From positions 1 through 14,939 of the forward strand of contig JAKBCH010000045.1 in assembly GCA_021808055.1 (NCBI GenBank): a DNA stretch of 14,939 nucleotides, read 5' to 3'. How positions within the stretch are numbered: the first letter of the stretch is position 1; each line of letters starts with the position of its first letter. The notes under the pieces were generated by a model. The model was not told the DNA's origin and made no database searches. It saw only the letters and a program-made list of their open reading frames with translations. The stretch is from Pseudomonadota bacterium. GTDB taxonomy: Bacteria; Pseudomonadota; Alphaproteobacteria; Acetobacterales; Acetobacteraceae. Made by a program: the position numbers and the translations under genes. Of the stretch, positions 11,418 through 14,939 are shown piece by piece.

Positions 11418-11482
11418 TGGTGCGGGCGGCCGGACTTGAACCGGCACAGGATTGCTCCCAACGGATTTTAAGTCCGGTGCGT
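11418..11482 (-). other. tRNA-Leu (TAA) 3' portion: probable integration junction
   Basis: On the minus strand this matches the anticodon arm, variable arm, T arm (GCCGGTTCAAGTCCGGC), 3' acceptor strand (CGCCCGC), discriminator A and CCA of a leucine tRNA with anticodon TAA. The D arm and 5' acceptor strand are absent; AT-rich sequence (upper-strand TTATAGAATAAC) replaces them. The anticodon stem shows CCGGA opposite TCCGT, a mismatch expected if the 5' side is not native. This is the pattern left at one end of an element that recombined in a tRNA anticodon arm. The intact tRNA should lie at the far end, right of the window. As it stands this copy cannot fold into a full tRNA. Confidence 0.85.
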
Positions 11483-11565
11483 TATAGAATAACTAGTTGA
11501 TATAATTCTAAAAAATGGCCTTTTTGGCTTTTATGTGTAAGATAGTGTGTAAGTTTTGACGACTT
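11483..11565. promoter_or_regulatory. AT-rich att-flanking segment with TGTGTAAG direct repeats
   Basis: Next to the tRNA junction lies an AT-rich stretch with two direct copies of TGTGTAAG at 11534-11541 and 11546-11553, twelve bases apart. Short repeats at this distance from a tRNA crossover are like the arm-type binding sites of tyrosine integrases. No integrase gene is in the window, so the role is inferred from position. Confidence 0.4.
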
Positions 11566-11859
11566 CTACTCGCTTTCAGCATTATTGCGGCGATTCGGCA
11601 AGGGGTTGTTTTTGCTGAGAATTTTCGCGAATCGCCTGTTTTGGGCGCCATCAAAGCGGAGATCGACCTCGTTTTCGTGGATTTGATCGCGTCACGCCGT
11701 TCAGAAGCGAGTCGCGTTGACGGCTAGGGTGCTGATTCCCGGTAATGCCCGTTAGAAATCTGACTGTCGCCCCAGGGTGACGGAGGATTGATTTGCCGGT
11801 TTTCCACCGCCCTCGTTCTCAGTCTGGCTCCTCGGCGGCTCAGCGCCCTTCTCGGTCAT
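11566..11859 (-). pseudogene. Degenerate small gene with three in-frame stops
   Basis: One minus-strand frame runs from ATG 11859 to TAG 11566 (98 codons) and contains TAA at 11754-11752 and two later TGA codons. The beginning (MTEKGAEPPRSQTENEGGG) and the end (IHENEVDLRFDGAQNRRFA, then ILSKNNPLPNRRNNAESE) look like protein sequence; the middle does not. I do not recognise the family. The ATG lies 12 bases after the TGA at 11872-11874 that closes a possible extension of the serine protease gene, so it may once have been the last gene of that unit. A 35-codon intact mini-ORF (11752-11859) is the alternative reading. Confidence 0.3.
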
Positions 11860-11980
11860 TTATTACTTCATTCAGACTTTCTTATAGCAGACATTACAAT
11901 AATTGTAAGGTTTTGTAGGCCGGGTCGAGACTCCCTCCTCAGTGGCGTCGCTTTCCTCGTCGCCAAAAGACTGCTTGATC

Positions 11981-12537
11981 TTAATCGGCTTTTTCCGGAG
12001 GAATGGACAAGCCTCCGGCATCCAACTTCTGGTGGTCTTCGGAAAGCTGTTCTGAAAATTCAGGGCCAAATGCAGCAGAGGGGTTGGTTAATCCAACTTG
12101 GTTTGAACAAAATATGTCAGCTACCGCATCCCAATAGCTACCTCTAAACCACGTCTGATCTTCAGCCATTGAAACTTGACTGGCAATCACTTTTAAGGAA
12201 GCGAGTGGTTTCCAAATATCTTGATGCGCGGGCTTAATGCAGATCCAAATTCCTCCTCCACTTACCCCGTGAAGCAAGGGGATATTTTCTTCGCGGCCTG
12301 TCCTAACATTGTAACCCGTTTTATTAAGCACAAAGAAAGCGTCATATTGAGTTGGTGCAGACACACTCGGCTTGCTTTCACGGTCGGATGTTACCAGCAC
12401 CAAAAGCCGTTGATGAATGCCCCACTCTGACGACCGCCCTTCAATGTAAGGGTAGCCACTTACGATTCGATCTCCGCCTAAATAGTTCCCACTTTTCATC
12501 ACATTGTCAAACGTGAGAACAGTCCAATTTGCTCTTA
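11981..12537 (-). pseudogene. Trypsin-like serine protease, 3' part, cut off by an IS
   Basis: This is the C-terminal part of the protease gene whose 5' part is at 13473-13830. It contains HGVSGGGIW, the GxSGG motif around the catalytic serine of trypsin-fold proteases (Ser211 of the reconstructed protein), preceded by a hydrophobic strand (QRLLVLVTSD). Reading on from the target duplication gives TLRANWTVLTFDNVMKSGNY with no break. The frame ends TAA at 11983-11981. A one-base change in the A run just before would continue it to 11872 through a charged tail ending KPYNYCNVCYKKV. Alone this fragment has no His or Asp of the triad and should be inactive. Confidence 0.75.
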
Positions 12538-13472
12538 GAGTCCGTTCGGGATCATTTTGTGATTTTACACATCTTTCTTAGCATCATCCTGACGGATGCC
12601 CAGCGTAGGAATGCGAGGGCATTTTTGTTCAAGCACTCCCAATCCTTTGCCAGACGGCGACAGCGGTTGAGCCAGCCGATAGTTCGCTCCACTACCCAGC
12701 GTTTTGGAAGCACGGCGAACCCCTTCACGGCGTCAGAGCGCCTGACGATTTCAACTTTGATTTTTTGCCGCATGCGCTGCAAGGTTTCGCGAAACTTTGC
12801 GCCCTGGTAACCGGCGTCGGCATAAAGCGGCCGTAGTAGCGAACGCTCTTTGCGCAACGCCGTCAGCAGCAGAATGCCGCCGTCACGATCCTGGATGTTG
12901 GCCGCGTGAAGCATGGCCAAAAGCAATAATCCCTGCGTATCTACAAGAAGATGCCGCTTCTTGCCCTTGATCTTCTTACCCGCGTCATAGCCCGGCGGGT
13001 CAATGCAGGCCCCCCTTTTTCCGCGCTCTTCACGCTCTGGCTGTCTATTATTGCCGCTGTCGGTTCGGCGTCCCGGCCTGCCAACTCACGGCAACGCACA
13101 TAGAGCGCCCGGTGTAACCGCGAGAGCGTGCCATCATCATCCCAACGCCGGAAATAATCATGTAATGTCGTGCTGGGAGGCAGATCTTTCGGAATCGACC
13201 GCCATTGGCAACCAGTGCTCAAAATATACATCAAACCGTTCACAACCTCACGCACATCGACCGTACGCTTGTTACCCCCACGCTTGGCCGGCGGAATAAG
13301 CGGCTCAACCAGCGCCCACTCAGCGCCAGTCAAGTCACTCGGATACCGCAAGCCCCCACGCTCATAACCAACACGATTGTCCGCCGTCCACATCTCCAAC
13401 CTCCTGCGAATCGGGCCAGCAGCATAGAATCACAAGTGATTCTAGAGATTCAAGATGTTTCCGAACGGACAC
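12538..13472. mobile_element. IS5-family insertion sequence, 935 bp, complete ends
   Basis: The left end GAGTCCGTTCGGGATCAT and the inverted right end GTGTCCGTTCGGAAACAT match at 15 of 18 positions. TTA flanks both sides (12535-12537 and 13473-13475) as a likely 3-bp target duplication; CTTA is also possible because the flanking bases agree. Length, ends and the DDE transposase on the minus strand fit the IS1031/ISL2-like groups of the IS5 family. A 9-bp hairpin (TAGAATCAC 13425-13433, GTGATTCTA 13436-13444) sits between the right end and the transposase start. The element interrupts a serine protease gene. Confidence 0.9.
12552..13393 (-). CDS. IS5-family DDE transposase in two frames
   Basis: The first frame starts at ATG 13393, with AGGAGG six bases upstream, and encodes the N-terminal DUF4096-type region (RYPSDLTGAEWALVEPLIPP, then VNGLMYILSTGCQWRSIPKDLPP) and the first catalytic Asp in AAIIDSQSVK. 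It leaves the conserved reading after SAEKGG at about 13010 and stops at 12941. The second frame resumes at the same place (IDPPGYDAGKKIKGKK), continues with the second Asp in LYADAGYQG and the Glu in VVERTIGWLNRCRRLAKDWE, and ends at 12552. The switch lies in AAAAAGGGGGG and needs a -1 shift. It may be programmed frameshifting, known in parts of this family, or a one-base loss. If it is programmed, the IS may still be active. Confidence 0.88.
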
Positions 13473-13830
13473 TTAGAGTATCAATGACTGTCACCTCAGT
13501 AAGTTCTATAACAACAACATCTACATCGTAGTCATGTCGAAATATAATTCCGCTGCCAAATGATTCCACTTTTTCTGCAGTTGTCGGAGCTGGTGAGAAG
13601 AATAATCCATCAAGTCCCACTTCATCCAAAACATGCTTCGCCGTGACCAAAAATAGTCGGCCTTCGGCATCAAAAAGGAGGCCGGTGCCAAGAGGGTATA
13701 TTTCCTTCTGATTATTAGCACTGTCACGTTCGGCGATTAGCGGGAGAGTGGCAAAACGGATGGCTTGCTCCAGTGCCTCGCGTTCTGCATCTATAAGGTC
13801 TTTTGGCGAGAACAAACTGCTATCGGTCAT
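13473..13830 (-). pseudogene. Trypsin-like serine protease, 5' part, interrupted by an IS
   Basis: ATG 13830 opens 119 native codons before the insertion site; the IS then adds a few foreign residues (SVRSETS) and a stop. Residues YPLGTGLLFDAEGRLFLVTA, then KHVLDEV, give the first strands of a trypsin/HtrA-like fold, with His66 as catalytic histidine. DYDVDVVVIEL supplies the Asp (102 or 104). No signal peptide or membrane segment is seen, so the intact enzyme was probably cytoplasmic. Joined to 11981-12537 after removal of the IS and one TTA, the frame is continuous for about 303 codons. The upstream neighbour on the same strand is a metalloprotease-like gene 74 bases away; the two look like one unit. 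Confidence 0.8.
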
Positions 13831-13861
13831 GTGGACGTCCTACGTCTGTAACTTCTCTAGG

Positions 13862-13879
13862 CCACTCGGCATCGAGTGG
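13862..13879. other. Intercistronic hairpin between the two protease genes
   Basis: CCACTCG (13862-13868) and CGAGTGG (13873-13879) pair perfectly around a four-base loop in the 74-base gap between the metalloprotease-like and serine protease genes. There is no U-run on the minus-strand side, so it is more likely an RNA-stability or attenuating structure than a full terminator. Confidence 0.4.
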
Positions 13880-13904
13880 GTTGGCACACGGGTCAATCCC
13901 CGGC

Positions 13905-14588
13905 TTATTCATCGTCCGTGTTCCAATTCTTTTCAAGGATATGGCTGTCTTGCCTGTGGCGGGAGATATGGCTGTCGGCTACCTCATGTGGCTTGGCCAC
14001 CCCCTGAATGAGGTCCATGACATCTGGGGCGAGAAGACAGACCTCGTCTCGAGTTTCCATTAAATCGTTCGGATTGATATCATTGTATATCAGAAGGGCT
14101 GCGCCTGCTAGACGACGGATCGGAAGGACTTGCCTCGCAACAATGTGTCCGGTCTCATCGATGAGTTCTTGTAGCAGCGCGTTTATTTCCGTCACCGGAT
14201 CGTCATTGTTTATTGCCTTCATGTTGCGGAGCAACCAAACCAACTCCAAAGCGTTACGCCAGTCATTGCAGCCATTGCCGTACTCCAGCGAATTGCTGAT
14301 GGCTGCCTTTGTCGCGTCGTCGGGTACCTCCCAGTCTTTGATCGCGCTGAGGTGCTGGGCAACTGTTCCGGCCAGCAGGACACGCACTCGCTTACGAATG
14401 TACTCTTCGGGATTAAGCCCCAGCCGTGCTGGTCTTGTCTCCGCAGACCCGGATAGATTCTTGAGCTGCATCCTCAGTCCATCGACTTCGAAACCCTCGA
14501 CGTAGGCGACAACTATATGACCTGCTTCGTGATAAATGATCTGAGAAGGCGACAGAGGAGGAGCGTTAGGCTTTTTTGGTGGGCTCAT
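13905..14588 (-). CDS. Stand-alone FtsH-type (peptidase M41-like) zinc metalloprotease domain protein
   Basis: The product is 227 residues. IIYHEAGHIVVAYVEGF holds an HEXXH zinc site (His20, Glu21, His24) in the exact HEAGHxxVA setting of FtsH M41 proteases. LLAGTVAQHL (71-80) matches the conserved LAGRxAEEL helix. Asp91 in PDDATKAA is at the right distance (about 70 residues) and context to be the third zinc ligand, as in FtsH. Unlike FtsH it has no AAA+ ATPase and no membrane helices, so it is not a self-sufficient unfoldase-protease. Its substrate is unknown. GGAG lies about ten bases before ATG 14588. It precedes the broken serine protease gene on the same strand. The gene itself looks intact. 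Confidence 0.75.
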   Translation of the reverse strand: MSPPKKPNAPPLSPSQIIYHEAGHIVVAYVEGFEVDGLRMQLKNLSGSAETRPARLGLNPEEYIRKRVRVLLAGTVAQHLSAIKDWEVPDDATKAAISNSLEYGNGCNDWRNALELVWLLRNMKAINNDDPVTEINALLQELIDETGHIVARQVLPIRRLAGAALLIYNDINPNDLMETRDEVCLLAPDVMDLIQGVAKPHEVADSHISRHRQDSHILEKNWNTDDE

Positions 14589-14939
14589 ACCATCTGCTCC
14601 AGCGGATCGTGATTCAAGTTACAGGGCTACCACTCGGTGTAAATCAATGCCCCCCGTTGACCATAAGTTAAAGCATTTGTCGAACGCCTGCGGTATCCAG
14701 AGTTGCCCCTGGTCGCTTATCATTTTTCCGCTCCACAGCAGCCAAGCAGGTTTCGGCCCACTTTGTCTACATTATTAGACGCCCCGGCAAAGCATGGCGG
14801 CCATTTCCAGGAGGGACTCTGCCCCTTGTTGCCCCGAATCTTTGAAAAAGAGCATGGTCGATGATAGCATACCCTCAGCACAGGCTGGAAAGCCGACGAC
14901 CGGTTAAAGGGAATCGAGCCAGACACGGGGGGCAATGAG
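14589..14939. other. Region upstream of the metalloprotease gene with no supported gene
   Basis: I see no convincing coding sequence in these 351 bases. A 71-codon minus-strand frame (14720-14935, TTG start) has unconvincing composition and no ribosome site. Minus-strand TTGATT and TGTAAC about 18 bases apart near 14625-14655 could be the promoter of the metalloprotease gene, but the match is weak. No integrase or second att site is present here, so the element, if it is one, continues to the right. Confidence 0.4.

Follow-up and report, generated by a model that had tools for sequence, protein, structure and literature searches.

We have analyzed two protease genes at one end of a mobile island, within a stretch of 14,939 nucleotides (the window, meaning this stretch at its full length). 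The features of the locus are collected in Table 1. The gene for an M41-like protein is intact, and is followed by a trypsin-like gene that starts 74 nt downstream of its stop codon, on the same strand. GGAG and AGGA are found upstream of the M41-like and trypsin-like starts. The trypsin-like gene is split into two pieces by an insertion sequence.

Table 1. Features of the protease locus and of the island end in the window
Feature	Position	Strand	Remarks
tRNA-Leu(TAA) remnant, last 65 nt, first 21 nt missing	11418..11482	-	Marks the island end (attachment-site remnant)
Island end sequence	11466..11735		Has counterparts in A. aminolytica (L126) and A. facilis (L132)
C-terminal piece of trypsin-like gene, 184 aa, GVSGG with catalytic Ser	11981..12535	-	
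Insertion sequence, 935 bp, IS4/IS5-type transposase, imperfect terminal inverted repeats, flanked by TTA on each side	12538..13472	-	Splits the trypsin-like gene
N-terminal piece of trypsin-like gene, 118 aa, His66 and Asp104	13476..13830	-	
Free-standing M41-like zinc peptidase (putative), 227 aa, intact ORF, no AAA+ domain	13905..14588	-	
MITE-like element, 295 bp, 14-nt terminal inverted repeats (93%)	14644..14938		At the right window end, upstream of the M41-like gene

The tRNA fragment at the island end comprises 65 of the 86 nt of tRNA-Leu(TAA), and is 100% identical over these 65 nt to the intact 86-nt tRNA-Leu in the closest MAG (L119); ARAGORN called no tRNA at this position in the window. 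The island end sequence matches the two Acidocella genomes by blastn with 78.5% identity across 270 alignment columns in one case and 79.8% across 252 in the other. Within 17 kb of a place in A. aminolytica that shares this end (L139:2108-18792) lie genes for a RES-domain protein, a MobA/MobL-helicase relaxase and a T4SS coupling protein, and the island is probably one of a mobilizable family of Acidocella. The tRNA-Leu remnant and the end shared with A. aminolytica and A. facilis place both protease genes at the attachment end of an integrated element, bearing out the mobile segment proposed in a preliminary description of this DNA. The best explanation is that the host of the island is an Acidocella-type acetic acid bacterium, acid-loving, with tRNA-Leu(TAA) as the integration site. 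No integrase gene was recognized by eye among the ORFs of 11483-14939, and the element runs on past the window end. That end is 351 bp upstream of the M41-like gene, so that any partner genes upstream of it would be unseen. The DNA at 14600-14939 had no match in plasmids.

The M41-like protein and its zinc ligands

The M41-like ORF encodes an intact protein that carries HEAGH and the AGTVAQHL stretch, as had been described; HEAGH occupies residues 20-24. HEAGH, which corresponds to the HEXXH zinc-binding motif, is invariant in a 6-row alignment. The predicted structure has the M41 fold with confidence, the model comprising the peptidase domain and a C-terminal helix, and relatives are found at 66% (P0002) and 49% (P0003) identity. 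With these relatives and a confident fold, the identification is more than chance. A Pfam search gave no AAA match in the 227-aa ORF. The conclusion that the protein is a motor-less M41-type peptidase is well supported, and it would be expected to be proteolytically active.

The preliminary description had proposed profile searches and structure prediction as a check on both proteins. The M41 fold was indeed predicted, but the window proteins do not reach the gathering scores of PF01434 and PF13365, which are detection scores and not defining features. PF01434 (gathering score 29.9) gave no match to the M41-like protein at E 1; the relative P0006 passes it with a score of 31.7. Solved chains searched with the M41-like profile (A2) gave FtsH as the best match, a weak one at 0.011. 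No match was found in the viral contigs for the window protein, A2, P0004, P0002 or A6, in the plasmids for the window protein, P0005 or P0004, in the phages for P0002, or in the genome contigs for A1.

The identity between the window protein and the M41 domains of FtsH, YME1 and AFG3L2 is approximately 13-20%. Unlike these, it lacks an AAA+ motor, and residues 91-103 form an additional helix between its AG and NDW helices. It is longer than the Vibrio cholerae chain of unknown function in PDB 5iqj, which has 125-131 residues.

Which residue provides the third zinc ligand? The preliminary description pointed to a correctly spaced Asp91. However, over the 14 free-standing sequences aligned, the window included, D109 (in NDW) is invariably Asp, whereas D91 is Asp in two of the 14, yet marked as at least 90% conserved in a 10-row alignment. 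On alignment with seven FtsH domains the column of the FtsH Asp holds Asp in 9 of the 14 free-standing sequences and Pro in the window, where D90 and D91 are one or two places off. The spacing from the first His is 71 for D91 and 89 for D109, compared with 78 in FtsH. Invariance thus favors D109, while the alignment to FtsH favors the D91 region. We lean toward D109 as the candidate ligand.

Since its own unfoldase is missing, the peptidase should cut only loosely folded or exposed segments, by comparison with FtsH. It would most likely be a regulatory protease acting on one target, belonging to the element, the host or an invader, rather than a general degrader.

The interrupted trypsin-like gene and its relatives

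The trypsin-like gene lies where it had been placed, 74 bases on and on the same strand, but the interval 13473-14588 in which it was described contains only the part with His and Asp; the Ser part is on the far side of the 935-bp insertion sequence (Table 1), and there is no uninterrupted reading frame for the gene. The insertion sequence contains two transposase ORFs, with matches to DUF4096 (PF13340, 1.8e-26) and DDE_Tnp_1 (PF01609, 3.5e-21). Because it splits the gene, the trypsin-like protein of this copy should be inactive.

Aligned to intact relatives, the pieces have His, Asp and Ser in the order of the S1 family, with H66 and D104 in the N-terminal piece and S92 in the C-terminal piece. 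His66 is thereby confirmed. The catalytic Asp had been given as Asp102 or Asp104; alignment makes D104 the most likely candidate, as it falls on the Asp common to the relatives. The N-terminal piece matches residues 3-102 of P0008, an intact 270-aa protein of Burkholderia anthina (32%, 7e-7), and the A. aminolytica relative (27%, 1e-10). The C-terminal piece matches residues 106-253 of P0008 (30%, 5e-12) and the same A. aminolytica protein (26%, 2e-11). The intact relatives are collinear with both pieces, and the trypsin-like identification is therefore more than chance.

Profile matches to this family are weak. The 126-aa ORF at 13450-13830 scores 13.3 bits with Trypsin_2 (PF13365), for which the cut-off is 27.6; P0008 (21.8) and the A. 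aminolytica protein (24.4) also fall below it, and a Hymenobacter relative (L116, 30.9) lies above. The PADLOC LmuA profile matches at E 0.0024 for the 126-aa N-terminal ORF and 0.0054 for P0008, and PDC-S45 at 0.019. In NCBIfam the best match (0.0026) is an unrelated phosphatase model, with DegP at 0.017, and the window's pieces match PHROGs at 0.023 and 0.064. Among solved chains the trypsin profile (A4) gave E values of 0.057 or worse, with ribosomal eL37 first and HtrA1 and DegS close behind; P0008 gave 1 at best, nothing significant, and the C-terminal piece had no match. The N-terminal piece had no match in the plasmids.

Relatives of the gene are few. Searching the plasmids with the C-terminal piece gave one record, that of P0008, and among the proteins searched this piece matches only its own cluster. 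The A. aminolytica relative, an intact protein of 317 aa (L143:1435-2388), was found by profile, and was the single match among 397 genomes of the family and again among 42 genomes (38 of the genus and four others). Within the class the family turns up in 4 of 385 genomes, in two cases as a weak match (L147 4.4e-8, L148 1.5e-6). Each intact relative is a single protein, 270-317 aa long, for which Pfam gives no additional domain above its cut-off. The unbroken trypsin-like protein would be a cytoplasmic single-domain endopeptidase, distantly like those of anti-phage systems, a likeness that may link it with defense.

In A. aminolytica the gene immediately downstream of the intact trypsin-like one is a DUF2971 gene (L143:291-1406). 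The A. aminolytica protein matches PHROG 36721 (2.8e-17), a phage protein family of unknown function; it gave no tblastn match in phage records, and P0008 no match in the phages.

Occurrence of the two genes together and apart

The M41-like profile was run against sets of genomes that overlap with one another. At E 0.001 it matched 2 of 50 genomes (G027, and G033 with a protein of FtsH size), and at 1e-5 it matched 2 of 397 in the family. None of 38 genomes of the genus matched at 0.001, an empty search without a known positive that shows little. In the class 25 of 385 genomes matched at 1e-5, in 26 places. Twenty-four of these, in open frames of 416-752 aa, were set aside as ordinary FtsH; the others were G776 and G644, the latter rejected and excluded from the count of M41 loci, its matching frame being arginine-rich and without HExGH. 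At 1e-6, 4 of 279 genomes of the phylum matched, two of them with free-standing proteins.

The preliminary description held that the two proteases work together, and named adjacency across genomes as the check. No relative of either gene was found near the other in 18 loci: at E 0.1 there was no M41-like ORF near the trypsin relatives in nine loci (84.8 kb), and no trypsin-family ORF near the M41-like relatives in nine (113.7 kb). The nine trypsin loci come from A. aminolytica, B. anthina, one viral contig (where the relative appears in two frames), two Hymenobacter plasmids and four genomes of the class; four of them are only 3.2-3.7 kb long. The weak matches L147 and L148 were kept, H4, H5 and H7 (a match to 16% of the query) were left out, and L159 took the place of the shorter L115 of the same contig. 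As a control, each of the same two profiles recovered its expected gene in all nine of its loci; this is in part by construction, since the genes of eight M41 loci and four trypsin loci are inside the profiles, with one and five outside. The relatives in these 18 loci are distant, with approximately 21-32% identity to the window genes where measured, and the set does not include the loci of P0002 and P0003.

Whole genomes gave a similar result. In A. aminolytica the trypsin gene is present, and at E 0.001 the M41-like profile matches nothing; the profile misses this genome's own FtsH too, so that a diverged free-standing M41 gene could be missed there. Conversely, three genomes with an M41-like gene (G027, G125 and G776) have no match to the trypsin profile. 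The M41-like gene and the trypsin pieces also differ in composition, with GC contents of 52.6% and 46-47%, and GC3 of 58% and 39-43%, respectively. On the lack of pairing in both sets of nine loci we have rejected the two-protease system as a conserved unit, and the claim that the pair works together is not supported in the loci examined.

How, then, did the two genes come to lie side by side? We think it rather probable that the two accessory genes were acquired independently and sit where a mobile island in tRNA-Leu(TAA) has its attachment end, and that they do not form a joint system; both are probably ordinary cargo, a motor-less M41-type peptidase and a trypsin-like gene broken by an insertion sequence. 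The evidence is that the trypsin gene is broken and that relatives of the two genes are not together in the loci examined, although the same-strand arrangement with only 74 nt between the genes, the distance of the relatives sampled, and the position of the P0002 and P0003 loci outside the sample all argue the other way. Gene order and spacing would fit with a rare, lineage-specific conflict system, broken in this copy, in which the trypsin-like protein might activate an M41 effector by cleavage or the two might share a target. The mobile context is in keeping with this, as are the weak PADLOC LmuA likeness of the N-terminal ORF and P0008, and the account in PMC12799240, in the available part of its text, of upstream proenzyme genes activated by trypsin-like partners. 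But the lack of pairing in both sets of nine loci, the difference in GC3, and the trypsin gene that A. aminolytica keeps without an M41 match all oppose it, and a literature search, within the portions of the sources available, found no pair of an M41-like and a trypsin-like protease; we regard such a system as unlikely. It is more doubtful still that the M41-like protein is no longer a peptidase, having kept the fold while serving in binding or as a scaffold. Alignment leaves the third zinc ligand between D109 and the D91 region, we found no biochemical data on the free-standing M41 kind, and the fold matches include FtsHi-motor chains, some of which are inactive as proteases, yet the HEAGH motif is undamaged, and all 14 free-standing sequences share one Asp. 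If the genes are separate cargo, the free-standing M41-type peptidases of mobile DNA, a little-studied kind, gain a member with structural support, and a supposed two-protease system is removed from the list.

Published systems offer partial parallels. The available text of PMC12799240 describes, for Hachiman and AVAST, pro-nucleases that depend on trypsin-like partners for activation, and these partners may be the nearest functional analogues in print of the trypsin-like protein. The nuclease-protease defense pairs described there (HamA, Avs1a and LmuA fusions) share with the window a trypsin-type gene downstream of a metalloenzyme gene. In the window, however, the upstream gene encodes an M41-like peptidase and not an MBL-fold nuclease, and the protease is not fused to HamA, Avs or LmuA, the gene ending at 11981. 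PMC7159879, in the part available, describes conflict-system peptidases of the trypsin-like kind with Trypco1 or Trypco2 neighbors, and ternary systems with FtsH-type ATPases. These resemble the window in having a trypsin-like peptidase with a co-occurring partner, and FtsH-type ATPases occur in one subsystem; but the FtsH part is the ATPase domain, unlike the peptidase of the window, and the term M41 is absent from that part of the text.

Some neighborhoods of the M41-like relatives point toward restriction. In G1032 (L153:1495-4090) an Eco29kI-type endonuclease gene and a C5 methyltransferase gene are followed, after a gap of 3 nt, by the M41-like gene, which is possibly the third gene of a restriction-modification operon. 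In G912 (L154:8399-17399) type I hsdM/hsdS genes begin 2.9 kb downstream of the M41-like gene with at least two other genes between; beyond hsdM/hsdS come an AAA_15 ATPase gene and a small gene that no Pfam model matches. Relatives also occur on plasmids: pQBR57, an Agrobacterium plasmid (beside repABC) and pD4A-46 (near an ArdR gene). The M41-like protein might be one of a mobile-element clade with the role of tuning restriction enzymes or other enzymes of defense, for example by breaking down a nuclease until the element is established; the trypsin gene would be unrelated. Only one of nine M41 loci (G1032) is directly joined to restriction genes, however, and every neighbor on pQBR57 is unnamed; with a single operon-like arrangement and a single neighborhood, the connection is a lead only, and we would give this explanation a low probability. 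Were it true, it would suggest that small proteases serve elements as a means of managing restriction or effector enzymes. Just as improbable, in our estimate, is a combined reading, in which motor-less M41 peptidases would form a mobile-element clade controlling defense enzymes by targeted cleavage, as a built-in, ATP-independent counterpart of host protease control of restriction, and would here be coupled to a trypsin-type effector in a rare pairing confined to the near relatives P0001-P0003.

The pQBR57 'peptidase M41' and related plasmid proteins resemble the window protein in being free-standing (approximately 180-210 aa), in having the Asp of D109, and in their location on mobile DNA. 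The pQBR57 protein differs in having HEMGH in place of HEAGH, and there is no trypsin-family ORF near its gene. A further free-standing M41 profile match (1.2e-20) lies on a Klebsiella phage-like plasmid (L158:4965-5531), among tail and baseplate genes.
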